Shown: piece by piece, positions 11,005-26,451 of the stretch
Position numbering within the stretch: the first letter of the stretch is position 1
How the letters are laid out: each line of letters starts with the position of its first letter
Virus record (IMG/VR): IMGVR_UViG_3300037963_004553
Span: 10,794-53,482 of that record
Length of the DNA stretch: 42,689 nt
Reading direction: 5' to 3' (one strand)
DNA from: a virus
Translations under genes and position numbers: made by a program
Notes under the pieces: model-generated
The model's input: only the letters and a program-made list of their open reading frames with translations
What the model was told of the DNA's origin: nothing
Databases searched by the model: none

Positions 11005-11029
11005 CTAGGACTTACGCAAAGCTGCCTAG
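11005..11029 (-). ncRNA. Intercistronic structured element, copy A
   Basis: Read on the minus strand: CTAGG-CA, mini-hairpin GC-TTT-GC, GTAAGT, CCTAG. The smallest copy of the nine-member family. It overlaps the TAG stop of the 11026-11958 gene and lies 27 bases before the ATG of the 37-residue peptide, with a C/A/U-rich leader between. Confidence 0.75.
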
Positions 11030-11958
11030 TTTTTCTTATTAAAAAAAGGTTTAAGTTGAGTCAAAGCAGGAGCAGGAAAAGGAACAAAATCATTTTCTAA
11101 CATGGCATCAAATAGATTCCATGCATCATGCTGGCTGTAATGGATGTCTTTGTTGTAAATACGCCATTTGTTAATGGGAGCCATCTTACCTGCTTTGGTA
11201 TATAGGATTTGTAATTGACCAAGCGTTTCCCCTGATGCTGGAGGAGCATATGACCAGGCTGTAGCTTTTTCAATCATCCCTGGTTTGGAATTGATTAAAG
11301 CTGATCGTTTGGAAAGAAACTCTCGATAACGATTAATCCAAGCAAGATGTTTACACATAGGTTCATAACCTGGTATCTCTTCTTGAATTTCTTTTAGTAT
11401 TTGTTTTTGTTGAACAAAAGAACCACAAGAACAATAAGGAGATAAGTCAGGTTCTTTTGCAATCTCATCAGAGTCATCAATAGACAAAGGAGGAGCTGGT
11501 AAACGCACACCATCAGGTGCAATTAAGTAACCGAAGTTGTAATCAGGATTGCCTAAAAAAGCTTTCATGCCTTCTTCATTTTGTATTAACTGAAGCTTGT
11601 CTCCCCATTTTTGTTGCATGATTGCTTGAGGTAAACGATAAGAACCTTGGAATTGATAGTTCCAACCTTTGTATAAGACATAACAATTGTTACGCCAGAA
11701 GCTGGGACCTTTTAGATCTGGACCAAGGTAAGCAAAGAAGTCAGGACAACGAGAACGAAAGTCTTTGAAAGCCTCTTTGATAGGATGTGTATCAAATTCT
11801 TTCTCTGTTCCATCGTTGTAAACAACTACAAGATCATCAGGGTTTAAATACATCCCTGATATATCTGTATCATCAAAGTTTGGATAAGCTCTGCGTATAT
11901 TTGATCGAGAATATATAACTTGCTGGCCTGAATTTAATTGTTCAATTGTTGTAGTCAT
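11026..11958 (-). CDS. SWIM-type zinc-finger protein
   Basis: A 310-residue protein. The recognisable part is a SWIM-like zinc site CSC (C176, C178) followed by MCKH (C202, H204), the CxC...CxH pattern that binds zinc in DNA- or protein-binding modules. The rest (N-terminal alpha/beta 1-160 and C-terminal 210-310 with APPASGETLGQL) is unassigned. In a replication block a nucleic-acid or protein contact role is likely. It starts ATG 11958 without a Shine-Dalgarno, behind an AT-rich leader, and follows a gene on the opposite strand. Confidence 0.7.
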   Translation of the reverse strand: MTTTIEQLNSGQQVIYSRSNIRRAYPNFDDTDISGMYLNPDDLVVVYNDGTEKEFDTHPIKEAFKDFRSRCPDFFAYLGPDLKGPSFWRNNCYVLYKGWNYQFQGSYRLPQAIMQQKWGDKLQLIQNEEGMKAFLGNPDYNFGYLIAPDGVRLPAPPLSIDDSDEIAKEPDLSPYCSCGSFVQQKQILKEIQEEIPGYEPMCKHLAWINRYREFLSKRSALINSKPGMIEKATAWSYAPPASGETLGQLQILYTKAGKMAPINKWRIYNKDIHYSQHDAWNLFDAMLENDFVPFPAPALTQLKPFFNKKN

Positions 11959-11987
11959 GAGTAGAATGAAGAATAAAATTGAATGAA

Positions 11988-12194
11988 ATGCTGAGTTTTG
12001 AATCGAGCCCAGAAGAAGAATTCTGGAAGGTCAAGATGGACCGTTACATCGAGGAATGCAACTCAGTGTATGAATTAAAACAGATCGCAACTATGCTTGT
12101 CAAGCTAGCTGCGACCCGTCAGTGTGTGATTAAAGGTCTAGTAAAGGATTCACTAGACCGTATGGAATCAGAACTTAGAGTCAGCTCCGAATGA
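11988..12194 (+). CDS. Small hypothetical protein on the opposite strand (68 aa)
   Basis: MLSFESSPEEEFWKVKMDRY, then ATMLVKLAATRQCVIKGLVKD: a helical, charged protein resembling small conserved cyanophage proteins. It is one of only two plus-strand genes inside the leftward replication block and therefore needs its own promoter; the gap before it (11959-11987) is the only space. Its end overlaps the DUF5895-like gene by 27 bases. A TTG at 11979 is an alternative start. Confidence 0.6.
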   Translation: MLSFESSPEEEFWKVKMDRYIEECNSVYELKQIATMLVKLAATRQCVIKGLVKDSLDRMESELRVSSE

Positions 12195-13286
12195 ATCACG
12201 AGCAGATGCAAGCATCTTGTCTGGGATAGAACTTTCTAAAACATTATTAGAAGATTCAGACATCATGGGAGGCATGATTCCCAGAGGTGTAATCTGTACA
12301 CCATCTGCAATGTTGATGAAACTATTGCCGTCTGTGTAACGACTCATCATTCCAATTGCATATTCATCTTGACGTTCTTCTTTAGTGCGTTCCATTAGAT
12401 CGTCAGGAATAATATGACTGTCTAAAGAAACTTGGGCAGCTTCTTGTCCTTGGTCATACAGAGGACGCTCATAATCAAAAGCAGTAACTGCTGTTGACTG
12501 ATTGTTACCCTGACCTACATCTTTCAACTCAAGGTGAGGTTGGAAAATGTATTGAGCAAATGCGTCATAGTTAGCAGGACGCTTCGGAGTTTTTGTAGCA
12601 GCTGCAAGTGCAGAGCCGACGTCATCTCTAAATGCTTTTAACTGATCGCGGAAAGATGCACCCACTGCACCTTTGATACTAAGAATCAAAGGAAGATCGT
12701 GACAACGTTGACCATAACCACTCATGAAATATACATAGTACCAAGTACGAATGGTGTGATCTTTTTTATTTTCGTTGTAAAGATCCCACAGCATATTAAC
12801 TCTACCTGGATCAGATTGATTATCTGCAGGATTAAATGAACCAATGATAACTGCTTTGTTAGCACCAGTCTTTTCATCTACTACATTCTTTTCAAGTAGA
12901 CCAGCGGTTTCAAATACAATTTGAAATCTTGGTTTAGTAAAAAGAATTCCTGCATTTGGTTCATCATTACCACCAAACTTTTGATTGTAAGGTTGAATAA
13001 AAGATGCAGGTTCAAGATCAGAAGCAGATGCTTTCCAAGCACACTTGATTAGATCTTCTTGCTTAATAAACAAACCACCAGCATCGCGTGAGTGAGCACG
13101 ATCATTTGGCTTGTTGAGAGCAATGATTTGTCCTGGAGATGGAGCAGCACCTACAAATTCTGGTTGTGTGAGATGTAAAAAAGAATCGAGTGAACGTTGT
13201 TTAGGTGCTTTTTGAACAGTGATCGATGATGTTTCTGGAAACAAGCTGATCGCTGTAGACTTTGTTGCTGTTTTTGTTGGAGTCAT
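12168..13286 (-). CDS. DUF5895-like cyanobacterial-type protein
   Basis: A 372-residue protein of unknown function. The order of motifs GGLFIKQEDLIKCAW (about 70-85), AGILFTKPRFQIV (about 112-125) and CHDLPLILSIKGAVGASF (about 195-213) resembles the DUF5895 proteins of cyanobacteria, a match made from memory. The low-complexity N-terminus and Met/Ser-rich C-terminus look disordered. It sits directly behind ssb and the polymerase, so a role in DNA metabolism is possible. Structured element B lies between ssb and this gene. Confidence 0.6.
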   Translation of the reverse strand: MTPTKTATKSTAISLFPETSSITVQKAPKQRSLDSFLHLTQPEFVGAAPSPGQIIALNKPNDRAHSRDAGGLFIKQEDLIKCAWKASASDLEPASFIQPYNQKFGGNDEPNAGILFTKPRFQIVFETAGLLEKNVVDEKTGANKAVIIGSFNPADNQSDPGRVNMLWDLYNENKKDHTIRTWYYVYFMSGYGQRCHDLPLILSIKGAVGASFRDQLKAFRDDVGSALAAATKTPKRPANYDAFAQYIFQPHLELKDVGQGNNQSTAVTAFDYERPLYDQGQEAAQVSLDSHIIPDDLMERTKEERQDEYAIGMMSRYTDGNSFINIADGVQITPLGIMPPMMSESSNNVLESSIPDKMLASARDSFGADSKF

Positions 13287-13309
13287 GTCCGTCGGACTAG
13301 TGTGAATAC

Positions 13310-13339
13310 CTAGGTCTTACGTCGTAAATGACTGCCTAG
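13310..13339 (-). ncRNA. Intercistronic structured element, copy B
   Basis: Minus strand: CTAGG-CA, hairpin GTC-ATTTAC-GAC, GTAAGA, CCTAG. It lies between the ssb stop and ATG 13286, 23 bases upstream of the start codon. The base after GTAAG is A instead of T, one of the variable positions. Confidence 0.75.
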
Positions 13340-13355
13340 ATGGTGGTAGCTTAGC

Positions 13356-14207
13356 TCAGAATGGTTCCTTTGAACTGTCTGAATCATTATCAGGTAATGA
13401 AGGTAAACCATTGGTTGATTCACCCCAAGGTTCTGCAATGGCCATAGGCTTTACAAGTTCAGGAACAGATGGTTCTACTGGATCTGATTCAGCAGTACGC
13501 CCACCCCAAAGTGATTTAGGCTGAGTATCAGTAGCTATTGTTGTTGTTGGTTTGATTGTGTTAGACGTTAACTCTGTTTTGGGAGCCAATGTCATTTGTT
13601 TCATTTGAATTTTAGTGTTATACCTTTGCTGTTTTATATTGTGATCAAACCAACTATCAGTAATTAACTGACCTTGAATAGTAATACCAGTTCCTTTTTT
13701 ACAAAGATTAACTAAAAGTTCTGCAGGTCTAAAAGCATCGTTGAGTTTGTTCATAGAAGTAAAATTAAAAAGATCAGCTGATGCTTTTCCTTTACTTACA
13801 GTCATGCTCATATTGGCAATCATTAAACCACTTTCTGTAGTTTTAAATGTCATTGGATTAGTTTGATCAGGATCTTTTGCAATACGACCCGTTAAAATAA
13901 CTGAGTTGTAAATAGGAAAAGAATCATCAACAATTGCAGGAATACCACCGTGAATAGAGTGTTCACGTGCTTCTAAATCATGATGAAGTTTGGCACCATG
14001 AATAAACAAACAAGTACCTTCTTGAATCAATGAACGCCAACGTTCTTGATCTTGAAAGATGTGATAGTACACTTCTGTTGGTGCTTTGTTAACACTAATA
14101 GGAGGTAATTGTACTTTTACCTTGAGTGCTGTCCTAGAAGAATTCACTTCTACATGAATTGTTTTTGGAGCTTCTGTAGCTTGAGCACAAACGAATACTT
14201 GATTCAT
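13356..14207 (-). CDS. ssb: Single-stranded DNA-binding protein
   Basis: A 283-residue SSB that coats ssDNA at the fork. The OB-fold core begins at YNSVILTGRIAKDP (100-113), continues through a weakly conserved central strand region and KKGTGITIQGQLITDSW to about 205. It is followed by a Pro/Thr/Glu-rich linker and an acidic tail ending DSDSSKEPF, equivalent to the partner-binding DDDIPF tip. The first 95 residues may be a second, diverged OB fold, making it longer than the usual SSB (about 170). It lies behind the polymerase gene, from which structured element C separates it. Confidence 0.85.
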   Translation of the reverse strand: MNQVFVCAQATEAPKTIHVEVNSSRTALKVKVQLPPISVNKAPTEVYYHIFQDQERWRSLIQEGTCLFIHGAKLHHDLEAREHSIHGGIPAIVDDSFPIYNSVILTGRIAKDPDQTNPMTFKTTESGLMIANMSMTVSKGKASADLFNFTSMNKLNDAFRPAELLVNLCKKGTGITIQGQLITDSWFDHNIKQQRYNTKIQMKQMTLAPKTELTSNTIKPTTTIATDTQPKSLWGGRTAESDPVEPSVPELVKPMAIAEPWGESTNGLPSLPDNDSDSSKEPF

Positions 14208-14230
14208 GAGTTTAAAGTTGGATCAGAAAT

Positions 14231-14258
14231 CTGGGACTTACATTCTAAGAATGCCCAG
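14231..14258 (-). ncRNA. Intercistronic structured element, copy C
   Basis: Minus strand: CTGGG-CA, hairpin TTC-TTA-GAA flanked by A/T, GTAAGT, CCCAG. The outer stem has G-C where A, B and G have A-T, a compensatory change. It fills the gap between the polymerase stop and the ssb start. Confidence 0.8.
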
Positions 14259-14261
14259 TAA

Positions 14262-16130
14262 TCAATGCGTATCGTACCAAGTGTATCCAGTTTTGGCATC
14301 GCCTTCAATCTTACATTGAAAGTTAAATGTTTCACCAGCCATTGGAAAAGCTGATAGGACTAAACGAATAATTTCATCTTCAAGTCCTGGCCTACAACTT
14401 AATTGGATTTCATCATGGATCATTCCATGTTGCTGCCAGTCCTGACCGTAAACAAAACAAGCATTGTTTAAGTTTTTATGAATGTTAACTACAACTTGCT
14501 TCATTAAAATTGCACCACAAGATTGTAATAAAACATTTAAAGCCTTGAAATCAGAACGACAATACAAAGGTCGTCGATCTAAACCTAATAAGTAACCACG
14601 AGCAACTAAGTTTTCTGCTAATTTATTTTTAAGTTTTTGTAAAGCTGGAACCCCTGTCATAAAAGAGTTGATAGCAGTTTTACCTAGTTGTTTAAGAACA
14701 TCAGGATCTTTTTCATCAGGATCTACAATGCTACCTGCTTTTAAAAATCCAGCACCATAAAGAACTGCATAAAGAAGTCGTTTGCTTATGTCTCGTGTCT
14801 CAACACCAAACTTTTCTTGATTGTATGTATGAATATCAACTGCATCATCAGTAACCATTTGTCCATATTCACCTTTATCCCAGAATGCTAAATAGCCAGC
14901 AAGACAACGTAGTTCTAAAGCTTTAGCATCAGAACCGATAAGGATCCAATCATCAGGAGCATGAAATAAAGAACGACATTCTTTTCCATATGGGCTATAA
15001 GCTGCTGGAATCTGCGCTGTATTTGGATTACGATGGCTACAACGCCCAGTAATACAGCCATTAGTAATGACGTCACCGTGAATATAACCGTCAGGAGATA
15101 CAAGTTTGATCCATGCATTGTTTCCATCTTTGATTTGGCCTAATCTTTTTTTGAGTAGCATGTATTCAGCTAAAGGTTTAGCTTCTGGGTATGGAAGTTT
15201 TTCTAAGACATCATCGTTAAGAACTGGATTTCCTTTTTCAGTTTTGGTTTCAGGAATCCAGTTATACTTTTTCTTTAAACGTTCTACGATTTGTTGACGT
15301 GAACCAGGATTAAAGACTTCAATACGTTTCTTACAAAACGGTTGACCTTTTACATAACCACGAGAAGCATTGTTTACTTTAGGAGTAAACCATTCTTCAT
15401 GTTCAACAGGAGGAAATAAATCAACTAATTCTTTTTCTAATATTTGTTTTTTGCATTCAAGTTCATCCACAAAATTAAGAGCTGCATCAATATCAAAAGG
15501 AAAGCCTGATCTAATTTGTCTTTCAATACAGGATGCAAAGGTATGTTCCAACTCAAGGGCACTTGATGCAACTGTTTGTTTTTGGATGTGCTCAAAGAGC
15601 TTGGTTGTGACATTGACGTCTTGTACACAATAGGACAACATGTCTTCAGAAAAAGACGAGAAATCTTTAAACTCAATCTTGTAGTCGGATAACCTATGAC
15701 CCCAAGCTTTGAGTGAAGCCGACCCTTTGAGTCCACCTGGCACACGTGTGTATGAAGTTGTATCCGATTCGAGTAACTTTTCTTTCGGCCAGATGAGTCG
15801 TGTGCAAATGAGTGTGTCGATGACATGTTGTTTGTTTAAAACAAAAGATGGTTTTAATTTTTGTAATACTGGTATGTCGTAGAAGATTATGTTATGACCG
15901 ATAAGTACATCAGCGCCGTTGAGAGCATCAATAGCACCATCAATAGAGTCAGGCCCGTAAGTAATAGTTTGTTGTCGCGTGACATCGTAGATAACGATGC
16001 AGAAGATCTCGTTAACATCATCATAAAGTCCGTTAGTTTCTATATCAAAAACATACCATTTTTCAGCTGAAGAATTTGGCTTCAGGTTGAACAGAGAGAT
16101 CTTTTGAGGCAAGCTTTTTGTCATTGTCAT
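14262..16130 (-). CDS. polA: T7-type family A DNA polymerase with 3'-5' exonuclease
   Basis: A replicative polymerase of 622 residues. Exonuclease motifs: FDIETNG (D29, E31), GHNIIFYD and YCVQD. Polymerase motif A is SDAKALELR (D401, E406, R408), motif B RDISKRLLYAVLYG (R446, K450, Y454) and motif C MIHDE (H572, D573, E574). Tyr454 corresponds to position 762 of E. coli Pol I and Tyr526 of T7, the residue used to group marine phage polymerases. No 5'-nuclease domain is present. The start ATG 16130 (or 16124) lies inside the upstream gene, a 68-base overlap. Expected partners are the prim-pol/helicase (1-1998) and SSB. Confidence 0.95.
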   Translation of the reverse strand: MTMTKSLPQKISLFNLKPNSSAEKWYVFDIETNGLYDDVNEIFCIVIYDVTRQQTITYGPDSIDGAIDALNGADVLIGHNIIFYDIPVLQKLKPSFVLNKQHVIDTLICTRLIWPKEKLLESDTTSYTRVPGGLKGSASLKAWGHRLSDYKIEFKDFSSFSEDMLSYCVQDVNVTTKLFEHIQKQTVASSALELEHTFASCIERQIRSGFPFDIDAALNFVDELECKKQILEKELVDLFPPVEHEEWFTPKVNNASRGYVKGQPFCKKRIEVFNPGSRQQIVERLKKKYNWIPETKTEKGNPVLNDDVLEKLPYPEAKPLAEYMLLKKRLGQIKDGNNAWIKLVSPDGYIHGDVITNGCITGRCSHRNPNTAQIPAAYSPYGKECRSLFHAPDDWILIGSDAKALELRCLAGYLAFWDKGEYGQMVTDDAVDIHTYNQEKFGVETRDISKRLLYAVLYGAGFLKAGSIVDPDEKDPDVLKQLGKTAINSFMTGVPALQKLKNKLAENLVARGYLLGLDRRPLYCRSDFKALNVLLQSCGAILMKQVVVNIHKNLNNACFVYGQDWQQHGMIHDEIQLSCRPGLEDEIIRLVLSAFPMAGETFNFQCKIEGDAKTGYTWYDTH

Positions 16131-16296
16131 TAATCCAATTAAGTATACTCATAGCACCTGTTTTGTTAGGAGAACAAAATGCTTTTGAAACATGGGAGTC
16201 TTTTACAATAGGAATCAATTCAAAACGGTTGGCATCAGGGTTGGGAGTAATGGCATGAGGTATTCCTTTTATATAAGTAGCAATTAAGTAAGCCAT
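16063..16296 (-). CDS. Hypothetical protein overlapping the polymerase start (77 aa)
   Basis: MAYLIATYIKGIPHAITPNP then RFELIPIVKDSHVSKAF and NKTGAMSILNWINDNDKKL: it looks like a small alpha/beta domain, function unknown. Start ATG 16296 is preferred; 16338 is possible. The last 68 bases overlap the polymerase gene in another frame, an unusually long overlap for this operon. Confidence 0.6.
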   Translation of the reverse strand: MAYLIATYIKGIPHAITPNPDANRFELIPIVKDSHVSKAFCSPNKTGAMSILNWINDNDKKLASKDLSVQPEAKFFS

Positions 16297-16350
16297 AAAA
16301 TAAGTGCAGAACACATAGATACTATCTGTCCTGCACAATTATGCAACTCA

Positions 16351-17121
16351 TTATTTGCTATATCCTGTCCAAGAACCCTGACGTTTACGCTCACTTAATG
16401 CTTTAGATGCATCAGAACCTTTCCGTTGAACACTGTGAACTAGTAATGCAAAAGGTTTATCACCAAAACAATGGCTATCGTCATGATCAATTTCTAATCC
16501 CATATCTTTTGCTTCTTGTTCTGTATAAACTACATAAGCAATTCGTTTAAAAATATGTCTATATTTATTTAATAAAGGGTCGAGATTCCCACCAGCTGAA
16601 GCAGTGAGAAAAAAGTTAGAAGGAACAGCATCTTGATTGTTGAGCCAGTACTGAAGTTGTTTGGTGTAGGCATAGAATTTAATCTTTGGATGTTGTCTTG
16701 CAACTTCAAGCCATGCTTTGAAATAAATTTCAGACCAGAAATCACCTGATTCATGAATACGAAAGAGATCGTATATAAACTTCTTGTTATTATGTTTCCA
16801 TATTGCATAAGCAATTGTATCTTCTATTGCACCTTGAGGATCTCTTACGTCTGGACTATACAATAATTCTTTAAGAATATCCCAGTTGTACCAACGTGCA
16901 TCACGACAATTTTTACTACGTGCCTCAGACATTGCAGCAAAACATCTGTATTCAGGACCACTGGCATTAGCTGCCATTGGTAAGTCTGAAATTGTACCTG
17001 TGACTCTATCTGCAAATGTTTTGCAATGGCCAGCATTAGGACAAGTATATCCAGCTGGTAATGAAAAGATTAAACGTTTACCAAGTTTGGCATTACCTTT
17101 GGAAAGTTTTAGTGTGTGCAT
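16351..17121 (-). CDS. GP88-domain phage protein
   Basis: A 256-residue protein resembling the phage 'gene product 88' family. Seen: KLSKGNAKLGK (5-15), SLPAGYTCPNAGHCKTFA with C27 and C33, FAAMSEARSKNC, IHESGDFWSEIYFKAW and FYAYTKQLQYW, in the usual family order. The cysteines suggest a metal site. The activity of the family is not known. It is the first gene behind structured element D, with a leader made of TTAACTCAACTC-like repeats and no Shine-Dalgarno. Confidence 0.8.
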   Translation of the reverse strand: MHTLKLSKGNAKLGKRLIFSLPAGYTCPNAGHCKTFADRVTGTISDLPMAANASGPEYRCFAAMSEARSKNCRDARWYNWDILKELLYSPDVRDPQGAIEDTIAYAIWKHNNKKFIYDLFRIHESGDFWSEIYFKAWLEVARQHPKIKFYAYTKQLQYWLNNQDAVPSNFFLTASAGGNLDPLLNKYRHIFKRIAYVVYTEQEAKDMGLEIDHDDSHCFGDKPFALLVHSVQRKGSDASKALSERKRQGSWTGYSK

Positions 17122-17150
17122 GAGTTGAGTTAAGTTAGTTTGAGTTAAGT

Positions 17151-17179
17151 CTAGGACTTACACCACTAGGGCTGCCCAG
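17151..17179 (-). ncRNA. Intercistronic structured element, copy D
   Basis: Minus strand: CTGGG-CA, short hairpin GCC-GGT, GTAAGT, CCTAG. The outer stem contains a G-U pair on the minus strand, which would be an A-C mismatch if read on the plus strand; this sets the functional strand as minus. It lies 29 bases upstream of the GP88 start and overlaps the promoter region of the divergent riboswitch gene. Confidence 0.75.
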
Positions 17180-17188
17180 GACTATAAT
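17158..17188 (+). promoter_or_regulatory. Promoter of the riboswitch transcript
   Basis: A perfect -10 box TATAAT at 17183-17188, with TTACAC at 17158-17163 as a weak -35 (19-base spacer). Transcription would start at about 17195, exactly where the riboswitch begins. Host sigma70-type polymerase should use it. Confidence 0.65.
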
Positions 17189-17194
17189 GAAAGG

Positions 17195-17255
17195 ACGTTC
17201 ACCCCATTGGGGCGCAATTCACCAGGTAAGGAACGGGACCTGGGTTTAGCGGAGG
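17195..17255 (+). promoter_or_regulatory. Glutamine riboswitch, Downstream-peptide type
   Basis: The leader folds as expected for the Downstream-peptide RNA of marine picocyanobacteria. P1 is CGTTC (17196-17200) with GAACG (17231-17235). P2 is CCCC (17202-17205) with GGGG (17209-17212). A second helix, CCAGGT (17222-17227) with ACCTGG (17238-17243), interleaves with P1 to form a pseudoknot. The conserved GTTCACC start and GGAACGGG segment fit my memory of the family. The Shine-Dalgarno GGAGG (17251-17255) follows at once, so glutamine probably controls translation or elongation of the downstream peptide gene. Confidence 0.75.
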
Positions 17256-17260
17256 ACATT

Positions 17261-17413
17261 ATGTCTACCAAGACACTGACCTATCGAGGTGTTAAGTACA
17301 TTCGTACTAACCCGACATTGAATTCGATCCATTCAGTTTGGGTTTCAAGGGATGAAAATAAAAAGGAACGTGAACAGTTCCAAGCAAAATTAGAACGTGA
17401 ACGACTTAAGTAA
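17261..17413 (+). CDS. Small YRG-motif protein under riboswitch control (50 aa)
   Basis: A 50-residue protein: an N-terminal beta-like segment STKTLTYRGVKYIR, then a very charged helical C-terminus rich in Lys, Glu and Arg. The LTYRGVxY motif resembles DUF4278-type small cyanobacterial proteins, a group that I recall includes the PII-interacting regulator PirA; this link is from memory and needs a profile search. ATG 17261 has an ideal Shine-Dalgarno (GGAGG, five-base spacer). The gene stands alone on the plus strand and ends one base before the convergent gene. A likely job is to tune host nitrogen or glutamine metabolism during infection. Confidence 0.75.
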   Translation: MSTKTLTYRGVKYIRTNPTLNSIHSVWVSRDENKKEREQFQAKLERERLK

Positions 17414-17602
17414 TTAAGCCCACGGCCAGCTTGGTTCTACATCAGCTTGCCATACGTCTGGATCAATAGGACGTTGACTTACATAAAAATTAAATAGGCG
17501 TTTCATTTCATCTAGTGAGACGCCTACTTTTTTTGCCATGATAGCTACATTAGTTTGACCTTTGTAGATAAGATCAAGAGCATCTTCTAATTCAAGCGAC
17601 AT
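17414..17602 (-). CDS. Small helix-turn-helix-like protein (62 aa)
   Basis: MSLELEDALDLIYKGQTNVA continues IMAKKVGVSLDEMKRLFNFYV, a pattern compatible with a helix-turn-helix (AIMAKKVGVSLDEMKRLF), then a Trp/Pro-rich tail. It could bind DNA. It overlaps the upstream zinc-finger gene by 11 bases and is convergent with the riboswitch-controlled gene. Confidence 0.6.
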   Translation of the reverse strand: MSLELEDALDLIYKGQTNVAIMAKKVGVSLDEMKRLFNFYVSQRPIDPDVWQADVEPSWPWA

Positions 17603-17927
17603 AATCTTCTATATGTTTCCATGTTTTTCTATGTTGAATTGAACGAATACAATTTTCAGACATACCAGTAAGCATCATTATGTTTTTAACTGGCACACCA
17701 TATTTAAGTTGCCTACGTATTTTTCTAACATCATCCTCTGTAAGAATAGAGTTTGGATTGTTTTTACCAGAAGCACGATCATAAACTCCTTTGCTTTTAG
17801 AAGCACAGCTTTTGCTGCAATAAGGACCTGCATGTCTGTGCGTAATACGATACTCTTCGCGTTTTCTTTCACGTTCAAATTTTGTTCCACAATAGGAACA
17901 AATTAATTTGACTGTTGGACGTGCCAC
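17592..17927 (-). CDS. Zinc-finger plus helix-turn-helix protein, homing-nuclease-like without nuclease core
   Basis: A 111-residue protein. The N-terminal zinc ribbon has CSYC (C10, C13) and YCSKSC (C37, C41). The C-terminal region GKNNPNSILTEDDVRKIRRQ, then GMSENCIRSIQHRKTWKHI, resembles the DNA-recognition repeats found at the ends of HNH homing endonucleases. No HNH catalytic core is seen, so it may be a regulator or a decayed mobile nuclease. GTG 17927 is chosen because GGAGG lies four bases upstream; the frame is open to ATG 17975. It overlaps the end of thyX by 25 bases. Confidence 0.7.
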   Translation of the reverse strand: MARPTVKLICSYCGTKFERERKREEYRITHRHAGPYCSKSCASKSKGVYDRASGKNNPNSILTEDDVRKIRRQLKYGVPVKNIMMLTGMSENCIRSIQHRKTWKHIEDYVA

Positions 17928-18568
17928 ATTGCCTCCGAAATAATAGGGAATTGTTCTTGAAAGATAGCCTTGCATTGCTCAGCAATCTCTTTGTGTTCTT
18001 GTTGCGTACCATTGGCAGTACGCAAATCTATGTAATGGAGCCATGACCTAAGTGTTCCGCACATAAATAATTTTGTGGGAGCAGACAAAGGTAATACAAA
18101 CCTAGCTGATTCTTTTGCTACACCATCAGACAACAATTCTTGATAAAGATGTTCAGCATCTTCATACATAATTGCTATTCGTCTGTAGTAGTCAGCAAGC
18201 TTTGGCTTGCCTAACTTCTGTTGCAAATCATCAGTGCTGTTTTGTCTGTTCTTATGATCTTGTGCTCTGAGATGTGGTAACTCAGGTCTACCAATAGTGT
18301 TGTTGTTTGCATAGCGTTGTGAGAATTCTTGGAAACCAAATGATGAATGGCGCAAGATCTGTGGACTGATTGCCCTGGTTGTACGTATCTCTACGCACAT
18401 TGATGCCATTTGAAATGGTGACCAGTGTTTATGTTTAATAAGATACTTTAATAATTTAGGACCTGTAGAAACATTCTTTGCATTAGCTGGAGCACTAACG
18501 CGGGCCATTTCTACAATGAGAGGCTCAGCTTCTTGTGTAGCCCAGATGAGTGACACATTGTCTTGCAT
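17903..18568 (-). CDS. thyX: FAD-dependent thymidylate synthase
   Basis: ThyX makes dTMP from dUMP using methylene-tetrahydrofolate, NADPH and FAD, and supplies thymidine for an AT-rich genome. Length 221 residues is normal. The signature region reads ILRHSSFGFQEFSQRYA (71-87): the ThyX motif RHR(x)7S is present except that the third residue is Ser75 instead of Arg. The C-terminal LFMCGTLRSWLHYIDLR and QQEH segments match the dUMP-binding end of the family (ordinarily Q-x-E-I-R). The gene follows tRNA-Leu in the same transcript direction. Confidence 0.9.
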   Translation of the reverse strand: MQDNVSLIWATQEAEPLIVEMARVSAPANAKNVSTGPKLLKYLIKHKHWSPFQMASMCVEIRTTRAISPQILRHSSFGFQEFSQRYANNNTIGRPELPHLRAQDHKNRQNSTDDLQQKLGKPKLADYYRRIAIMYEDAEHLYQELLSDGVAKESARFVLPLSAPTKLFMCGTLRSWLHYIDLRTANGTQQEHKEIAEQCKAIFQEQFPIISEAMWHVQQSN

Positions 18569-18602
18569 TGAAAAATGAAATTAGTAATGAATACTAAGTG
18601 TT

Positions 18603-18690
18603 TGGTAGGAGTGGCGAGACTTGAACTCGCACGACTGTAACAGTCCACAGATTTTAAGTCTGATGCGTCTACCAATTCCGCCACACTCCC
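18603..18690 (-). tRNA. tRNA-Leu (anticodon UAA)
   Basis: An 88-base class II tRNA. Acceptor GGGAGTG pairs with CACTCCT (the first pair is G-U), the anticodon loop is CTTAAAA with TAA at 18656-18654, a long variable arm follows, the T loop is TTCAAGT, and CCA is encoded. It reads UUA, a common Leu codon in these AT-rich genes. Element E ends seven bases before its 5' end. Confidence 0.95.
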
Positions 18691-18696
18691 GGTGAT

Positions 18697-18743
18697 GTAG
18701 GACTTACGCCTAGCCGCGACAAGAATGTCACTCGGCTGCCTAG
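18697..18743 (-). ncRNA. Intercistronic structured element, copy E
   Basis: Minus strand: TAGG-CA, a long inner hairpin (GTGACA / TGTCGC around TTCT, with an outer GCC / GGC), a TAGGC insert, GTAAGT, CCTA. One outer pair is lost compared with the other copies. It sits between the PcfJ-like gene and tRNA-Leu. Confidence 0.7.
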
Positions 18744-18753
18744 GTTGGTGCGA

Positions 18754-20562
18754 TCAGTTTAACTGTTGCGTACGTTTTTGCAACGCATAACTAAAAGCTT
18801 CTTGAACATCATCACGTTCAATATCGTCAAGCCTGCGGTTACCTATATCTGCAATTTGATTAACATTCATAATGCCATTGTCAACAGTGAGTTGCACTGT
18901 GTATCTTGGCTTGTTGTCAACCATTGCAAGAACAATCAGATGTTTCATCTTCTTAACACCTTCTGCATAACCATGGCCACCACCAACACAGTTACGTACA
19001 GCTCGACCCCAGGCTGCGAGTTGGTGTGTGTCTTTAGGCTGGAAGAAACTAATCTTTGTTTCTAATTCAAGTTCTTGTTCTTCTTCTGGAAGCATATCAA
19101 AACAATCATCCCAGGTTAGGTCAACATACTTACGTACTTGTATTGGTTCAGGAAATAACTTCTGTGGTAAATCAACATTAGGATTGTGAAGCTTCCAGGA
19201 TTCTGCCATGAGATGATCATGCCAGTCTTGTAAACGCCAACGTTTTGGCTTGAGATTATCAGTGCGTTGACCAGCAATGCATTGAGTTAACATCTGGTAA
19301 GTGTCACGATAAAGATGCATGTATATGAGAATATATCCAGTCTTATTATCTGGTGTGCGATAAGTATCTTCTTTAATTTCTCTGTCGTAATAACTTTGGA
19401 ACATATTAATAAACGATTCAACGGGTAAGTTTTCACGAATCCAGGCATTACCTGTGTCACTATGAACACCAGGCATGTTTAGTCTTTTTAATAAATCATA
19501 TCTGGAATGTATAAGATTAAGATCTATATTTTTATAGATAGATTTGATATCATTTACTGTTTCAATAAATTGATACAGCTCTGCATATGGTTGTATTAGT
19601 GCTTCTCGATTGTATTGCATGCTTGATGTTTGTTTTTCATGAATGGAATAGGTATTAGCCATTGCTTTTGCAACTAGAGATCTAAACCATTTAGCTTCAA
19701 AAAAGTCACTCATGCAATGATCACGAAAGCGCCGACGTAATGTATTTATGATTGTATCTAAATCATGTACATAATCTGTATCATGAGGGTGCCATTTTGG
19801 TCGTGAATAATATTCACTCATTATTTTTTCAAACTTGCAGTTAGCAGGATTCATGCGTGCAAAATATGTATGATCAGAGCCACCAATAAATGTTGGTATA
19901 CCTTTAATTAATTCTTGTTCCCAGCTACGAATAGTTTTACTCATCTGATAAGTGTTACCATACGTACGAACATCGTGGTTTGATGTCACACTTTTCCAGT
20001 AGTTACCTGTGTATCCATCAACAAGTTCATCTTTGGTAAAAAAGATTGACTTGCGATACCAATATGAACGACCATCTTTGATACGTGGAAGCATGTCTTC
20101 TTCTTTTCCTGTATGATCAAACATACTTTTGCCAAGATGATTTGGACATAAAAAATATCTTTCAGTACATTGATTGCGTGCAGCTTTAGTGTCTCTAAAT
20201 GCAATAGTAATCCCGTAGATATAGCCGTCATCTTTACGCCTGGGTAACCAACAAGCAACCCATAATTGCCTAATAAAATAAACAACTGCAAATGGTTTGG
20301 GGTCTTCTCCAAGCACAGGCCTAGTTAAGAGATGACACTTCTCTTTAGATGTTCGTGCATTAATAACATCTACAACTTCAGACCAGGTACGGTCATTAAC
20401 AATGTCAGTAGGAAACATATTAGATGGTCTGCCATTGGGATAAGTTTGTTTCTTCTTACCCATAGCTTTATCTTCTGCTGCCATAGCAGCCGCTAGTCTT
20501 TTACGTGTTTTGTCATAGCTTGCTACTTCAAGTGCAAGCTGATCAGGAAGATTGAAATGCAT
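18754..20562 (-). CDS. PcfJ-like protein
   Basis: A 602-residue protein; the C-terminal 90 residues resemble the PcfJ family: HQLAAWGRAVRNCVGGGHGY (513-532, with C525), then KMKHLIVLAM, PRYTVQL and NVNQIADIGNRRL. PcfJ-like proteins occur on plasmids and phages and have no settled activity. The first 500 residues are rich in Tyr, Trp, His and Arg and contain an early KKKQTYPNGRPSNMFPTD segment; no catalytic motif is clear. Start ATG 20562 sits behind element F and a TTCATTCAAC-type leader. Largest unexplained protein of the leftward block. Confidence 0.7.
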   Translation of the reverse strand: MHFNLPDQLALEVASYDKTRKRLAAAMAAEDKAMGKKKQTYPNGRPSNMFPTDIVNDRTWSEVVDVINARTSKEKCHLLTRPVLGEDPKPFAVVYFIRQLWVACWLPRRKDDGYIYGITIAFRDTKAARNQCTERYFLCPNHLGKSMFDHTGKEEDMLPRIKDGRSYWYRKSIFFTKDELVDGYTGNYWKSVTSNHDVRTYGNTYQMSKTIRSWEQELIKGIPTFIGGSDHTYFARMNPANCKFEKIMSEYYSRPKWHPHDTDYVHDLDTIINTLRRRFRDHCMSDFFEAKWFRSLVAKAMANTYSIHEKQTSSMQYNREALIQPYAELYQFIETVNDIKSIYKNIDLNLIHSRYDLLKRLNMPGVHSDTGNAWIRENLPVESFINMFQSYYDREIKEDTYRTPDNKTGYILIYMHLYRDTYQMLTQCIAGQRTDNLKPKRWRLQDWHDHLMAESWKLHNPNVDLPQKLFPEPIQVRKYVDLTWDDCFDMLPEEEQELELETKISFFQPKDTHQLAAWGRAVRNCVGGGHGYAEGVKKMKHLIVLAMVDNKPRYTVQLTVDNGIMNVNQIADIGNRRLDDIERDDVQEAFSYALQKRTQQLN

Positions 20563-20593
20563 GATGTTGAATGAAATAATGTGGAATGAAAAA

Positions 20594-20630
20594 ATGGGAC
20601 TTACGTAGTTCGTCTCTTACTACTGCCCAT
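20594..20630 (-). ncRNA. Intercistronic structured element, copy F
   Basis: Minus strand: ATGGG-CA, hairpin GTAGT / ACTAC, GTAAGT, CCCAT, followed by a run of six T. The outermost pair is A-T instead of C-G, a compensatory change. The T run could add terminator activity to this copy. Confidence 0.75.
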
Positions 20631-20634
20631 AATG

Positions 20635-20916
20635 TTAGTCGTCTTCGTCTAGTTGCCAATCAAGATCTAGATCTTGAATGTAATTAAGAAGATCTACAGG
20701 ACTGCCCAGGGTTGGCGGAGGATCGTCGCCAAACAGAACTTCAAACCCTGCTGAGCAAACACCAGGGCCATATTCTTCAGGCGAAGCCACATCTGCTGGG
20801 TGATAGACAGCAGGCTTGGTAAGAAGTTTGTCTTCAACCAGTGCAGTGACAATGTAATGAATTGATTCATAAGTAACTAGATCTTCTTCAAGATTAATGA
20901 TGTTGATAATAGACAT
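20635..20916 (-). CDS. Acidic hypothetical protein (93 aa)
   Basis: MSIINIINLEEDLVTYESIH then a Pro/Gly-rich middle and a strongly acidic tail (LDLDWQLDEDD). No family is recognised. Starts two bases after the upstream stop, so the pair 20919-21164 and this gene are probably translated together. Confidence 0.65.
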   Translation of the reverse strand: MSIINIINLEEDLVTYESIHYIVTALVEDKLLTKPAVYHPADVASPEEYGPGVCSAGFEVLFGDDPPPTLGSPVDLLNYIQDLDLDWQLDEDD

Positions 20917-20918
20917 AA

Positions 20919-21164
20919 TTACTTACGTATAGTGAGATGTTTAACCATGGCATAGCCCATAGAACTAACAGATGTTTCTTTGGAAGCAAAGACACTGTTA
21001 GGACCATGCGATTCAAATAGTTCTGGGAAAGCTTCAATAATTCGCTGCTTGTTATCTGGATCAGCAATCCTGAAAGCAGTCATAAGAGCTGCGCCAAAAC
21101 CACCTGCATAAACTTCTATGCGTTCAATGGTGTCATGGATAGATGGATCGTTGTACTTGAGCAT
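20919..21164 (-). CDS. Hypothetical protein (81 aa)
   Basis: MLKYNDPSIHDTIERIEVYA, then FGAALMTAFRIADPDNKQRIIEAFPELF: a compact helical protein resembling short phage proteins that begin with a DNKxxI...FPELF pattern. Function unknown. Element G lies upstream. Confidence 0.65.
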   Translation of the reverse strand: MLKYNDPSIHDTIERIEVYAGGFGAALMTAFRIADPDNKQRIIEAFPELFESHGPNSVFASKETSVSSMGYAMVKHLTIRK

Positions 21165-21191
21165 GAGATGAGGTTAAATGAACAACAGAAG

Positions 21192-21226
21192 TCTAGGACT
21201 TACATGTTGGGGACACAATGCCTAGA
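21192..21226 (-). ncRNA. Intercistronic structured element, copy G
   Basis: Minus strand: TCTAGG-CA, hairpin with TTG / CAA, GTAAGT, CCTAGA; the outer stem has six pairs. The distance to ATG 21164 is 27 bases, filled by a C/U-rich leader. Confidence 0.75.
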
Positions 21227-21265
21227 TAAAAGTATTTACTTAAAGGTATATAAGTATTCTTGGTG

Positions 21266-21287
21266 GTCCCTGCGGGGGTGCAGGGGG
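21266..21287 (-). terminator. GC-rich hairpin downstream of 21306 gene
   Basis: A six-pair stem CCCTGC / GCAGGG in an otherwise AT-rich 140-base gap. No T run follows on the minus strand, so it is a pause or protection hairpin rather than a full intrinsic terminator. A TATATA sequence lies between it and element G (21247-21252) and might restart transcription. Confidence 0.4.
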
Positions 21288-21305
21288 CTTTACTATTTCT
21301 TAACA

Positions 21306-21491
21306 TTACATGAGTTGATTATCTAACCACTCAGTAAACTTACCTTTCCTTGGATTAAATGAACGTCGCCTTGGTGCCCTTTCTTTGAGAATGTAAACAC
21401 GTTTACCATTGCGAAAGAAGTAAGTTCCTCCTTTGGGACCTTTAAAGATTTCAGCATCTTCTGGGACTAGCTCCTTGGGCACATACGTCAT
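21306..21491 (-). CDS. Small basic hypothetical protein (61 aa)
   Basis: MTYVPKELVPEDAEIFKGPK then GGTYFFRNGKRVYILKERAP: the GPKGGTYFFRNGKRVYI segment looks like a small beta-hairpin module seen in many phage and viral short proteins ('GPRGGRYYINSKGRKVYI' type). The C-terminus is basic. It overlaps the DUF4236-like gene by ATGA. Confidence 0.65.
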   Translation of the reverse strand: MTYVPKELVPEDAEIFKGPKGGTYFFRNGKRVYILKERAPRRRSFNPRKGKFTEWLDNQLM

Positions 21492-21760
21492 TCGTTGTCA
21501 GACCACATGTCGGGTTTACTGTTGTGTTCAGGTAGATCAGGTGTGTTGAAGTCTGGCAGGTCAGCCAGTTTGATTCTGCGTTTGCTGATACCAGTTCCAG
21601 GTATTGCAACAGAGCCAAGGATACCTGAACGTCCGATGTTACCAGAGAATTGGATAGGACCAATCTTTACAGATTTACCGAAAGATTGTACACCATTCTC
21701 TGTGATTTCAATTCCGAAGATTGTTTTGCGGAAGTTGATAAGGCTGCGTTTGCGTGTCAT
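21488..21760 (-). CDS. DUF4236-like protein (90 aa)
   Basis: LINFRKTIFGIEITENGVQS, SVKIGPIQFSGNIGRSG and SVAIPGTGISKRRI follow the DUF4236 pattern (FRKxIxxG...SKSGVS...G..G...VxxPGTGxS). The family is widespread in bacteria and phages and its role is unknown. Coupled on both sides by ATGA overlaps. Confidence 0.65.
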   Translation of the reverse strand: MTRKRSLINFRKTIFGIEITENGVQSFGKSVKIGPIQFSGNIGRSGILGSVAIPGTGISKRRIKLADLPDFNTPDLPEHNSKPDMWSDNE

Positions 21761-21987
21761 GAGTTTGAGTTGAAATGGTTTTCAATAATCATTATGAGGT
21801 AATCACCAATAGGTGTTGTACCTCTTGCTTCATTAAGACGTTCTTTCATTTCCTTTGGAATCCTAATATTAAATTGAACCCTGTCACCTTTCCATTCTGG
21901 ATGTTTCTTTTGATTTAAATAAAATGGAGATTTAATTTGTATTACTTTGTTCCATTTGAGTCTTTCGTTTGGGATTGAGTTCGTCAT
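21757..21987 (-). CDS. Ribbon-helix-helix protein (76 aa)
   Basis: The segment DRVQFNIRIPKEMKERLNEA (about 38-57) then TTPIGDYLIMIIENHF fits a MetJ/Arc-type ribbon-helix-helix DNA-binding fold: a beta strand followed by two helices. It is likely a dimeric repressor or plasmid/phage regulator. Start MTNSIPNERLKW at 21987 overlaps the upstream gene by 56 bases; the open frame reaches 22050. Ends with an ATGA overlap. Confidence 0.7.
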   Translation of the reverse strand: MTNSIPNERLKWNKVIQIKSPFYLNQKKHPEWKGDRVQFNIRIPKEMKERLNEARGTTPIGDYLIMIIENHFNSNS

Positions 21988-22168
21988 GAATCTGTTGTGC
22001 ATTGCGATGTAGTGAATTGATACGCATGAAGTTAGCTTCAAGCCATTCATGCAGAGCAGTTTCTATAACCTGGTGAGGCATGACCTCAAGTATTTTAGCA
22101 AGTGACTCGACCATGCTTTGATCAACACCAGTTATAGGTTCAATTAGATATTTCTGAGGGTTACTCAT
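21932..22168 (-). CDS. Hypothetical helical protein (78 aa)
   Basis: MSNPQKYLIEPITGVDQSMV followed by SLAKILEVMPHQVIETALHEWLEANFMR. The middle looks like a short ribbon-helix-helix-like or antitoxin-like region (AKILEVMPHQVIETALHEWL), less clear than in its neighbour. Function unknown. Confidence 0.6.
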   Translation of the reverse strand: MSNPQKYLIEPITGVDQSMVESLAKILEVMPHQVIETALHEWLEANFMRINSLHRNAQQIHDELNPKRKTQMEQSNTN

Positions 22169-22322
22169 CTTTAAGTGTGTGTAAAATGGTTAGATTTGAT
22201 TTGGATTTAGATCTTAAACGATCTTTAGTTTTCCATGGGCGTTTGTTGCCCACTGTCATAACAGGACCATGACCACCACGGTCTTTCTGAGACGGTGGTG
22301 GTATGTATTTAGATTGATCCAT
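22161..22322 (-). CDS. Small basic hypothetical protein (53 aa)
   Basis: MDQSKYIPPPSQKDRGGHGP then a Lys/Arg/Ser-rich C-terminus (KTKDRLRSKSKSN). Probably disordered and nucleic-acid binding. Start 22322 leaves a five-base gap after the upstream stop; the frame also opens at 22349. Confidence 0.55.
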   Translation of the reverse strand: MDQSKYIPPPSQKDRGGHGPVMTVGNKRPWKTKDRLRSKSKSNLTILHTLKDE

Positions 22323-22327
22323 TGGAT

Positions 22328-22552
22328 TCAGTAGTAGATTTTGCGACAAGAGATAATAATTCTATGGACCATTTTTCCATCAGGCCTTTTGAGTGGAAAG
22401 TTCTTTAGGATCTGGTGCCGTGCATCATCAATGTCATGAGCATAAATATTGGCAGACCAAGTACCTACACCAAGAAGATAATCTTGACCAGGTACAGGAT
22501 CTGCTGGTGGTTCATGTCTGTACTTGACACGATAGCGATTGCGTCCAGTCAT
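22328..22552 (-). CDS. Hypothetical protein (74 aa)
   Basis: MTGRNRYRVKYRHEPPADPV, then LLGVGTWSANIYAHDIDDAR and a beta-rich end (VHRIIISCRKIYY). This pattern of an initial strand, W-containing strand and helix DIDDARHQIL resembles small phage proteins of about 70 residues with unknown role. Confidence 0.6.
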   Translation of the reverse strand: MTGRNRYRVKYRHEPPADPVPGQDYLLGVGTWSANIYAHDIDDARHQILKNFPLKRPDGKMVHRIIISCRKIYY

Positions 22553-22556
22553 AAGA

Positions 22557-22793
22557 TTAAGAATTGGTAGAACGTTGGTTGTAGATGTCCGTTAAGTCTT
22601 CAAACTTAGGGACATCTTCTGTTGTAATGATTGGGCCTTCCTCTGGATAACAATTTTCAATAGCAGCCATAAGTAATGAACGTGCTACATCAATACGATT
22701 GCGACCTGTGCGTTCTGCAAGGTTATCGAGTTTATCAACATACCAACGTTGAATTAATCTGATGTTGAGTTGTTGAGGTTGAGTCTTGTTCAT
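22557..22793 (-). CDS. Ribbon-helix-helix (CopG-like) protein (78 aa)
   Basis: QLNIRLIQRWYVDKLDNLAE then RTGRNRIDVARSLLMAAIEN is a CopG/ribbon-helix-helix arrangement: strand, helix, G-R-N-R turn and second helix. A second putative DNA-binding regulator in this cluster. Start MNKTQPQ at 22793 forms an ATGA overlap with the upstream stop. Confidence 0.7.
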   Translation of the reverse strand: MNKTQPQQLNIRLIQRWYVDKLDNLAERTGRNRIDVARSLLMAAIENCYPEEGPIITTEDVPKFEDLTDIYNQRSTNS

Positions 22794-23041
22794 TTGTAGT
22801 GTGTTTGAAGTTGACGGTACCAAAGACTCTGTTGAGTCCAGGTGTTAGATGAATCATCAACAATCTGTTGGAACAGATCATCAACGAGTTGTTCGGGACC
22901 ACCGTGATTGATCATGTCAATAGTGGCATGGTCTAGTCCTTGCAGCAACTTAGCTGCAGGATCTTTGGGTAGCTTGTGCAGTTGAATAGGATCGCGACCT
23001 TTAGATTCGCGATACTCATTGATCTCAGAGATTGATAGCAT
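22790..23041 (-). CDS. Hypothetical protein (83 aa)
   Basis: MLSISEINEYRESKGRDPIQ then LQGLDHATIDMINHGGPEQLVDDLFQQIV: a helical acidic protein, unrecognised. Element H lies just upstream, and the leader lacks a Shine-Dalgarno. Confidence 0.6.
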   Translation of the reverse strand: MLSISEINEYRESKGRDPIQLHKLPKDPAAKLLQGLDHATIDMINHGGPEQLVDDLFQQIVDDSSNTWTQQSLWYRQLQTHYK

Positions 23042-23064
23042 TGAGTGATAAGATTTGCTTATAT

Positions 23065-23097
23065 GTCTGGGGCTTACACCATAAAGGATGCCCAGAC
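23065..23097 (-). ncRNA. Intercistronic structured element, copy H
   Basis: Minus strand: GTCTGGG-CA, hairpin with CC / GG pairs around TTTAT, GTAAGC, CCCAGAC. The outer stem is seven pairs, two of them beyond the family core. The variable base after GTAAG is C here. Confidence 0.75.
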
Positions 23098-23102
23098 TTA
23101 GG

Positions 23103-23447
23103 TCAAATTAAACAAAGAAGATTCAGCCAAGAATCAGGATGATCTGGCTCAACTTCCTGGTCACCTGGTGTAAAAGCTAGTGAACCGAGGACATAGTCTT
23201 CGATGTCTTCTTTGCACGGGACTTCGTACCAGCCTTCGATGTCTTTGTCGTCGTGGACTGGGATCCAATAGCACCAGAGTTTGCCTTCTTTGTCCTTGCT
23301 GATGCTGCCGTTGAGCGGCGGTTTGTTGCAAGGCTTGGCTCTGTCGTAGGTAACTTCTGCTTCCCATTGTTCGAGGTACTCTTCTTCACTGAACTTTTCG
23401 TAGCCAGTGAGAGCTTGGGCGATTGCGTAGGTTTCTGGATGAAGCAT
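23103..23447 (-). CDS. Hypothetical protein (114 aa)
   Basis: MLHPETYAIAQALTGYEKFS, then a charged helix and a beta-rich part (GKLWCYWIPVHDDKDIEGWY). Acidic overall, unrecognised. A 23-codon hydrophobic stretch is readable in another frame across its start (see findings). Confidence 0.6.
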   Translation of the reverse strand: MLHPETYAIAQALTGYEKFSEEEYLEQWEAEVTYDRAKPCNKPPLNGSISKDKEGKLWCYWIPVHDDKDIEGWYEVPCKEDIEDYVLGSLAFTPGDQEVEPDHPDSWLNLLCLI

Positions 23448-23501
23448 GAGATTAACTCTGTGATGATAATTGAAACAATAACAATGATGTGCAGGATGAC
23501 A

Positions 23502-23705
23502 TCATCCTTTGTGGTAGTCGGCATCTCCTGCCACCTCCTCTGACATAAGTTCTTGCATAAGTTGTTCTTGTTCGTTTGCAATATCGTTAAGAACGAATTG
23601 CTGATCTTGTGTGTATTCAGTTGTTTGCTTAGCTTTGTATTCAGCTTGGCCAGCTTCAAATTCGCGGCGTTGCTGCTCAAGCAGCCAGGTTTTGATGAGA
23701 GACAT
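23502..23705 (-). CDS. Small hypothetical protein (67 aa)
   Basis: MSLIKTWLLEQQRREFEAGQ continues as a Gln/Glu-rich helix, probable coiled coil, ending ...VAGDADYHKG. Start 23705 is set by element I (23742-23804) immediately upstream; the open frame extends to 23795 but would run through the element. Confidence 0.6.
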   Translation of the reverse strand: MSLIKTWLLEQQRREFEAGQAEYKAKQTTEYTQDQQFVLNDIANEQEQLMQELMSEEVAGDADYHKG

Positions 23706-23741
23706 AGTGTTAGGAATGTTGAATTGAATGAAATGTGTAGT

Positions 23742-23804
23742 CTGGGACTTACATAGTCTCGGCGTCCCTGGAATAGGACGCAAGTAATGAGACATAAAGC
23801 CCAG
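23742..23804 (-). ncRNA. Intercistronic structured element, copy I
   Basis: Minus strand: CTGGG-CT, a long inner hairpin (GTCTC / GAGAC, then GCGTCC / GGGACGC), GTAAGT, CCCAG. The longest copy; the left dinucleotide is CT instead of CA. It precedes the 23502-23705 gene. Confidence 0.75.
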
Positions 23805-25272: not shown

Positions 25273-25292
25273 GGTTACAAATAAGAATAAAG

Positions 25293-25315
25293 AAAAAAGG
25301 GGACTTTACAGCCCC
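25293..25315 (-). terminator. Rho-independent terminator
   Basis: Minus strand GGGG, loop CTGTAAAGT, CCCC, followed by TTTTTT. It lies just after the 25325-25690 stop. The GTAAAGTCCCC part looks like the right half of the nine-copy element, but the conserved CA and split stem are missing. Confidence 0.75.
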
Positions 25316-25324
25316 CTGATTTGG

Positions 25325-26313: not shown

Positions 26314-26451
26314 GATGTTGAAGTGAATGGAACGTTGCTACGTTTAACGTCCAGCTTGACGGTTGTTGATCGCTACAATCTTTCTTGGACTTCAGCGCTA
26401 GAGAGCGCGAAATAACAAGTAAAAGGTGGCAAACAACAGATGGAAAGACTG

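Follow-up and report, generated by a model that had tools for sequence, protein, structure and literature searches.

Repeated intercistronic elements are a known kind of phage feature. In phage T7, several intercistronic hairpins with an asymmetric internal loop, all on one transcript, are sites for RNase III. The SAS and ESAS elements of Cluster K mycobacteriophages, in the part of the published account drawn on here, occur in many copies, in nearly one orientation, in the non-structural half of the genome and before a subset of genes, with inverted repeats of variable spacer in about half of them, and are rare or absent in the host (PMC3203893). At intercistronic barriers in chloroplasts, such as the PPR10 sites, endonuclease cuts followed by exonuclease trimming are described, in the relevant section of the source, as giving overlapping 5' and 3' ends of neighbouring transcripts (PMC5897788). 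Structured RNAs named manA, wcaG and PhotoRC-II are reported from cyanophages and marine samples, with manA and wcaG placed in potential 5' untranslated regions in the portion of the work used here (PMC2864571). Here we analyse a 42,689-nucleotide (nt) stretch of viral DNA, called the window throughout (bases 10,794-53,482 of the 53,482-base IMG/VR virus record IMGVR_UViG_3300037963_004553), whose leftward gene block carries nine copies of one small folded RNA family, type A. In related phages the same gaps can hold a second fold, type B, and together A and B mark cistron borders on the leftward replication and metabolism transcript of cyanophages resembling S-EIV1, a cultured phage of Arctic freshwater Synechococcus that is the best named relative of the window (polymerase identity 66.3%). 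The block encodes a family A DNA polymerase, SSB, ThyX, a GP88-family protein, a weakly PcfJ-like protein and one tRNA-Leu(taa).

A preliminary description of the window had reported nine elements on the minus strand, and all nine were located there, spanning 12.8 kb. The type A consensus consists of a 5' arm ending in GG, C-A, an inner helix, G-U-A-A-G-N, CC and a 3' arm. Across the whole 53,482-base record the pattern YRGGCAN{5,34}GTAAGNCCYR occurs 8 times in reverse and 0 times in forward orientation, with 0 matches for the reversed control, and a strict pattern with pairing checked finds 8 minus-strand and 0 plus-strand copies in the window, against a mean of 0.01 and a maximum of 1 in 200 dinucleotide shuffles. 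Chance repeats as the origin of the nine copies are ruled out by these counts. Copy-number statistics use the strict pattern only; a laxer scan accepting any arms of 5 pairs gave 2.35 chance matches per shuffled strand and was discarded as a statistic. The ninth copy (23742) escapes the strict pattern by reading CT where CA is expected, and the CA that had been called constant thus holds in eight of the nine. A covariance model, R1, trained on 28 copies whose inner part is ten bases long (window copy 14231 among them), finds all nine with E values from 6e-9 to 0.019 (282,778 bases searched). Each copy lies in a gap, with a gene or in one case a tRNA following, as had been described; the accompanying claim that each follows a gene end fits copy 17151 poorly, since its upstream neighbour on the same strand ends 235 bases away, beyond an intervening plus-strand glutamine-II riboswitch. 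The copies are:

11005-11029, minus strand: type A, overlapping the stop codon of the gene at 11026-11958; R1 score 30.0 bits.
13308-13341, minus strand: type A in the gap between the SSB gene and a DUF5895 gene, with an ATG 21 nt downstream.
14231-14258, minus strand: type A in the gap between polA and SSB (polA|SSB).
17151-17179, minus strand: type A, 29 nt ahead of the GP88-family gene, with one G-U pair in the outer stem (CTGGG/CCTAG).
18697-18744, minus strand: type A, a few nt ahead of tRNA-Leu(taa); lowest model score, 19.3 bits.
20594-20630, minus strand: type A, 31 nt ahead of the 602-aa PcfJ-like gene.
21192-21226, minus strand: type A, 27 nt ahead of an 81-aa gene.
23065-23097, minus strand: type A with a 7-bp outer stem, 23 nt ahead of an 83-aa gene.
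23742-23804, minus strand: type A reading CT for CA, with a long apical hairpin; 36 nt ahead of a 67-aa open reading frame (ORF).

In the model alignment, which was fitted to the structure and has 110 distinct rows, the covariation score is 0.279, compared with 0.124 after shuffling and no more than 0.144 in slid registers. The signal survives in copies that were not chosen by pairing. In 97 copies that the scan patterns do not cover, outer pair 3 is paired in 80% versus 38% when shuffled, and inner pairs 2, 3 and 5 in 79, 70 and 75% versus 53, 42 and 42%, while outer pairs 6-8 and inner pair 1 do not exceed the shuffled background. Similarly, 110 loci retrieved solely by way of type B yielded 55 type A candidates, in which outer pair 3 is paired in 78% (43% shuffled) and inner pair 2 in 80% (58%), with outer pairs 4 and 8 and inner pairs 1 and 6 not standing out; in a small set of 14 copies from polymerase-fetched loci and the window, little covariation is visible. 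Because both helices covary, also in copies not picked by pairing, we conclude that type A acts as an RNA fold, with two helices flanking a C-A / G-U-A-A-G internal loop. This agrees with the preliminary description, which had predicted a structured RNA with a conserved internal loop and had proposed the covariance model and covariation check. Its observation that the outer pairs change in step is borne out in the polA|SSB gap of close relatives, which reads CTGGG/CCCAG in the window and locus L241 and CTAGG/CCTAG in L110 and L240; copy 17151 has its one G-U pair in the outer stem. A loop-tolerant scan demanding both helices returned 145 candidates with the exact loop and 33 with one change; since the recurrent changes are limited to ATAAG (10), CG (7) and CT (5), the C and the UAAG are kept in credible type A copies. 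At the first inner position U mostly faces U, and 94 of the 110 alignment rows are non-standard there; inner parts range from ~7 to 60 nt with pairing retained. When single copies were folded by energy, the internal loop appeared in some only (exactly in 13308 and 20594), others taking a shifted register.

The polA|SSB gap of S-EIV1 and of L246 holds type B instead of type A. Its consensus is xGTCCYRRGYA-U-GACy-UUAAA-C-UGCYY, with x pairing with y, and C-G, U-A, A-U and G-C are all present at x:y in 49 loop-selected copies. In 37 copies from loci fetched via type A, x:y is paired in 32, against 22 when shuffled (maximum 29), and pairs 3 and 4 of stem two in 34 and 36, against 28 and 25; covariation at second-stem pairs 1 and 6 does not stand out in these copies. 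Type B is therefore an H-type pseudoknot, as x:y exchange and stem two covary and both crossing helices are backed by covariation. One exact form, with 25 of 26 bases fixed and one free, was found in 118 IMG/VR stretches, and a shorter pattern allowing one mismatch in 6 of 19 records, on a single strand in each, with zero matches for the reversed control. The two types also occur in one operon (for example in L170), and the 110 loci fetched through type B hold, in 22 of them, 35 type A candidates with five or more outer pairs, 34 of which lie on the B strand. The window itself contains a diverged type B pseudoknot that the preliminary description had overlooked:

26337-26361, minus strand: diverged type B (CGTC-AA-GCTG-GACG-TTAAACGT-AGC), 23 nt ahead of a 55-aa gene, near the start of the leftward block.

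Both consensus sequences read GCAU at the helix junction despite their different topologies, and a six-base linker, NUAARY, is common to both (GUAAGU in A, UUAAAC in B); this likeness may be a coincidence or a shared core.

Rfam 15, applied at gathering threshold to the window and six relative loci, returned tRNA and glutamine-II matches only and none over A or B, nor did it match either type in two stretches of 1,151 bases examined up to E = 5, in keeping with the element having been called unrecognised. The glutamine-II riboswitch (17193-17244, plus strand; 42.3 bits versus a gathering score of 33) adjoins element 17151, and a short plus-strand ORF behind it runs counter to the leftward block. 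Likenesses to twister-sister, pistol, kink-turn and tetraloop-receptor motifs were considered but found no support from Rfam. Our literature searches, which did not cover the S-EIV1 genome paper, found no description of the A and B families. A large list of candidate phage RNAs, reportedly published by Fremin and colleagues in about 2023, was absent from the search results and may include them.

The preliminary description had let much depend on copies in related phages, and these are present in many viral contigs and in S-EIV1, whose two A copies are a CG and an ATAAG variant and which also has six B copies. R1 has matches at E up to 0.1 in 38 of 44 whole records; among the matches listed there are up to 9 per record, and one weak match, in record G015, lies on the opposite strand. 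In loci chosen by their polymerase rather than by the element (12 fetched, 10 searched), type A lies on the polymerase strand in six. The six whole records without an R1 match at this threshold and the four searched polymerase loci without a match count against a wide spread. In every one of the 52 loci that have at least three A, all type A copies share one strand, and the same holds for all elements in each of the 62 loci with at least three A or B (loci partly overlapping in both counts); loci are often overlapping or near-identical, and element counts are not counts of independent events. A 20-base type A pattern occurs in at least 120 IMG/VR stretches and has 3 matches in the genomes of 84,980 cellular species, about the chance expectation, on which ground a cellular origin was rejected. 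Two 17-base pattern scans of IMG/VR give lower bounds only, each with an estimated ~100 or more chance matches, and conclusions were drawn from multi-copy loci, model scores and loci fetched by other means. S-SRM01 has one type A copy (E 4.8e-4), and no A below E 0.2 and no B was found in P-SSM2, S-CBWM1, B23, Sf-FR1, S-H25 or two single-cell marine virus records. Locus L252, one of the three matches in cellular genomes, appeared intron-like by eye, but a group II intron was rejected as it has neither an Rfam match nor an obvious reverse transcriptase ORF within the locus.

Placement was analysed with mechanical ORF calls on 260 A and 58 B remaining after removal of exact duplicates. An ATG follows within 80 nt in 196 A (median 28 nt) and 54 B (median 22.5 nt), and for 222 A and 52 B a stop codon is found in the 150 nt upstream, at a median of 6 nt for each. 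G makes up 9% of the A leaders and 6% of the B leaders, and 25 of 197 A leaders include a Shine-Dalgarno-like word. Ahead of tRNA-Leu, the A loop and its CC end 6-9 nt upstream in 17 of 21 genes (39 sources, window included). Eight downstream gene families, including PcfJ-like, GP88 and SSB, are preceded by A in some phages and by B in others. Where the other neighbour differs, the element is retained beside the downstream gene in 1535 of 2605 pairs, compared with 304 of 1171 for the upstream gene, the pairs not being independent. Type A is also found ahead of the major capsid gene in contigs related to S-CBWM1, with no such copy in S-CBWM1 itself, and between psbA and its terminator in P-SSM2-like contigs, with no A at psbA in P-SSM2 itself. 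In L089 (4092-4121) and its relatives L062, L079, L104, L106, L109, L111 and L127, a single A directly follows psbA and precedes a terminator hairpin.

Several occurrences depart from this arrangement. In L069 (2917-3645) an array between two genes repeats a unit of A, a T-rich spacer of ~75 nt and a hairpin of the form GTTTGCCTGTACTTAACAGGCACA; similar arrays are present in L015, L076, L101, L105, L112 and L121, no tRNA was found in the L069 array, and such arrays are possibly small RNAs or emptied gene gaps. Paired A elements spaced by only 6-8 nt occur in L036 (1520-1595) and L091, with which L222 is grouped. In S-SRM01 (L263, 1500-1610) and L188 (574-680), A elements precede related genes that resemble homing endonucleases by eye, the L188 gene having a NUMOD3 match and the S-SRM01 gene none. 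Their apical loops are complementary to the start region over 13 and 11 nt, respectively, with differing sequences, and a TATAAATA-like word, which we take to be of the T4 late promoter type, lies between A and gene. This suggests that the start codon is hidden in read-through transcripts, a direct regulatory use in one side branch. Within the leftward block of the window, a gap without A or B holds a GC hairpin followed by a T-run (GGGGGCTGTAAAGTCCCCTTTTTT; 25273-25324, minus strand) that is probably an intrinsic terminator.

Compared with the described systems, A and B belong by test to none of SAS/ESAS, the T7 RNase III sites or the chloroplast barriers. The A stems are short, presumably too short for a T7-like RNase III site, and the B pseudoknot would not be a usual RNase III substrate. 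SAS and ESAS resemble A and B in being multi-copy, oriented, pre-gene elements; however, SAS consists of 13 fixed bases located at the start codon itself, for which the part of the account used here reports no covariation (PMC3203893), whereas A and B are variable-stem folds lying 22-28 nt upstream with no Shine-Dalgarno sequence. No conserved 13-base word marks the translation start here, the leaders between element and ATG being variable and G-poor. The chloroplast barriers likewise lie between cistrons, and chloroplasts descend from cyanobacteria, but there the barrier, as set out in the section used, is a bound protein or a stem-loop (PMC5897788), in contrast to a conserved RNA fold of putative function. 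The manA, wcaG and PhotoRC-II RNAs, in the portion of the source used, are tied to particular metabolic genes rather than repeated along an operon (PMC2864571), and their Rfam models do not match here.

Conserved as RNA, uniformly oriented, placed at cistron borders and exchanged for one another at the same gene, A and B are, in our favoured explanation, interchangeable modules at cistron boundaries by which the phage transcript is processed or protected; in this explanation we place about as much trust as doubt. The modules would define RNA ends: a nuclease, or the RNA itself, would cut in or beside them, or, alternatively, exonucleases travelling along the transcript would halt there. The downstream cistron would then begin with a short G-poor leader, and a tRNA with almost none, and the upstream cistron would end shortly behind its stop codon. 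In effect this would resemble the T7 RNase III sites or the intercistronic barriers that bound proteins form in chloroplasts, with the RNA itself serving as the barrier. We favour an RNA-end role because it covers the ATG-proximal, tRNA-proximal and psbA-terminator cases together with the two-fold exchange; one role filled by two folds beside both mRNA and tRNA neighbours fits the definition of RNA ends better than a single protein operator. Among the three ideas of the preliminary description (an operon-wide processing site, a put-like antitermination RNA and a regulatory aptamer), the processing site likewise gives the best fit to placement. The cyanophage P-SSP7 increases RNase E in its host, with the phage transcripts being shielded, according to the part of the report used here, a setting that fits an RNA-end role (PMC9692554). 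A bolder and more tentative proposal, which we think probably overreaches, is that two unrelated self-sufficient folds act as interchangeable makers of RNA ends, either as a prokaryotic counterpart of exonuclease-resistant viral RNAs or as a new minimal pair of self-cleaving RNAs, yielding stable single-gene messages and a set-off tRNA.

Four observations weigh against boundary modules that process or protect the transcript. Most gaps have no element, A or B being present in 136 of 379 called gaps of 50-120 nt and in 87 of 315 longer ones (based on approximate gene calls and counting the 3 kb margins). The type A hairpins are mostly of moderate stability, -7 to -9 kcal/mol in six of the nine window copies, and in another phage group A stands in tandem non-coding arrays with the next ATG distant. 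Finally, the bond with the downstream gene is also expected if the elements act in translation.

The main rival is translational control. Here RNA-binding proteins of the phage or the host would attach to A and B as operators or standby sites and so control translation of the next gene, whose leader is unstructured and mostly has no Shine-Dalgarno sequence. We keep it as the main rival because it fits the bond with the downstream gene, even though a purely translational role fails in the tRNA, array and terminator cases; we consider it possible but rather unlikely. The tight ATG spacing, the G-poor leaders and the complementary apical loops in S-SRM01 and L188 also speak for it. However, over 89 A the complementarity of loop and leader equals that of shuffled sequences (4.07 vs 3.99), copies stand 5' of a tRNA, in non-coding arrays and before a terminator, and two folds would demand two proteins or a shared feature. 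As a special case of the favoured explanation, A and B could be two small self-cleaving ribozymes cutting the transcript, with conserved unpaired bases on variable stems, one role for two folds and a cistron-border placement. We judge this improbable: the conserved loop bases are few, the A of CA is replaceable by G, U or C and the first G of GUAAG by A, and no Rfam ribozyme matches.

Slightly less probable again are sites of transcription control by put-like antitermination, pausing or termination. Elements repeated along an operon on the gene strand would suit them, as would a modest T enrichment behind A (53, 49 and 39% at positions 2-4), but in position-wise composition no intrinsic-terminator T-run follows 249 A and 42 B, and in L089 a separate terminator follows A. 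To our knowledge, put RNAs are few per genome. Rather than one or a few sites near an operon start, as expected of put or nut, nine A are spread over 12.8 kb; such multiplicity within one operon, the use of the same gaps by an unrelated second fold, and the copies lying immediately ahead of a tRNA or between the psbA stop codon and its terminator all speak against the antitermination proposed in the preliminary description. Its regulatory aptamer fares no better. Compact folds with conserved loops upstream of genes might be two riboswitch classes for one ligand, yet no expression platform is seen, the leader is ordinary and G-poor with its infrequent Shine-Dalgarno-like words, and copies also precede a tRNA and a terminator, which makes a riboswitch very unlikely. 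Least credible of all is a DNA-level feature, such as an inverted repeat bound by protein or a joint at which gene modules recombine. Multiple copies at gene boundaries would be natural for either, but compensatory changes in both type A helices, inner parts that still pair across their range of lengths, the x:y exchange of type B and the strict orientation all argue for a role in RNA.

Overall, these data add two RNA families, unmatched in Rfam 15, that recur widely in viral contigs and are present in a cultured phage. The exchange of A and B at orthologous gaps is a natural experiment in which the role is retained and the fold is not. Cyanophage control of RNase E, as presented in the part of the report drawn on here, already raises the question of how phage messages survive (PMC9692554). 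If A and B define RNA ends, they would reveal how the messages of lytic cyanophages stay usable at a time when host nucleases act on host RNA, and catalysis or exonuclease resistance, should they have either, would make them new and very small representatives of such RNAs.

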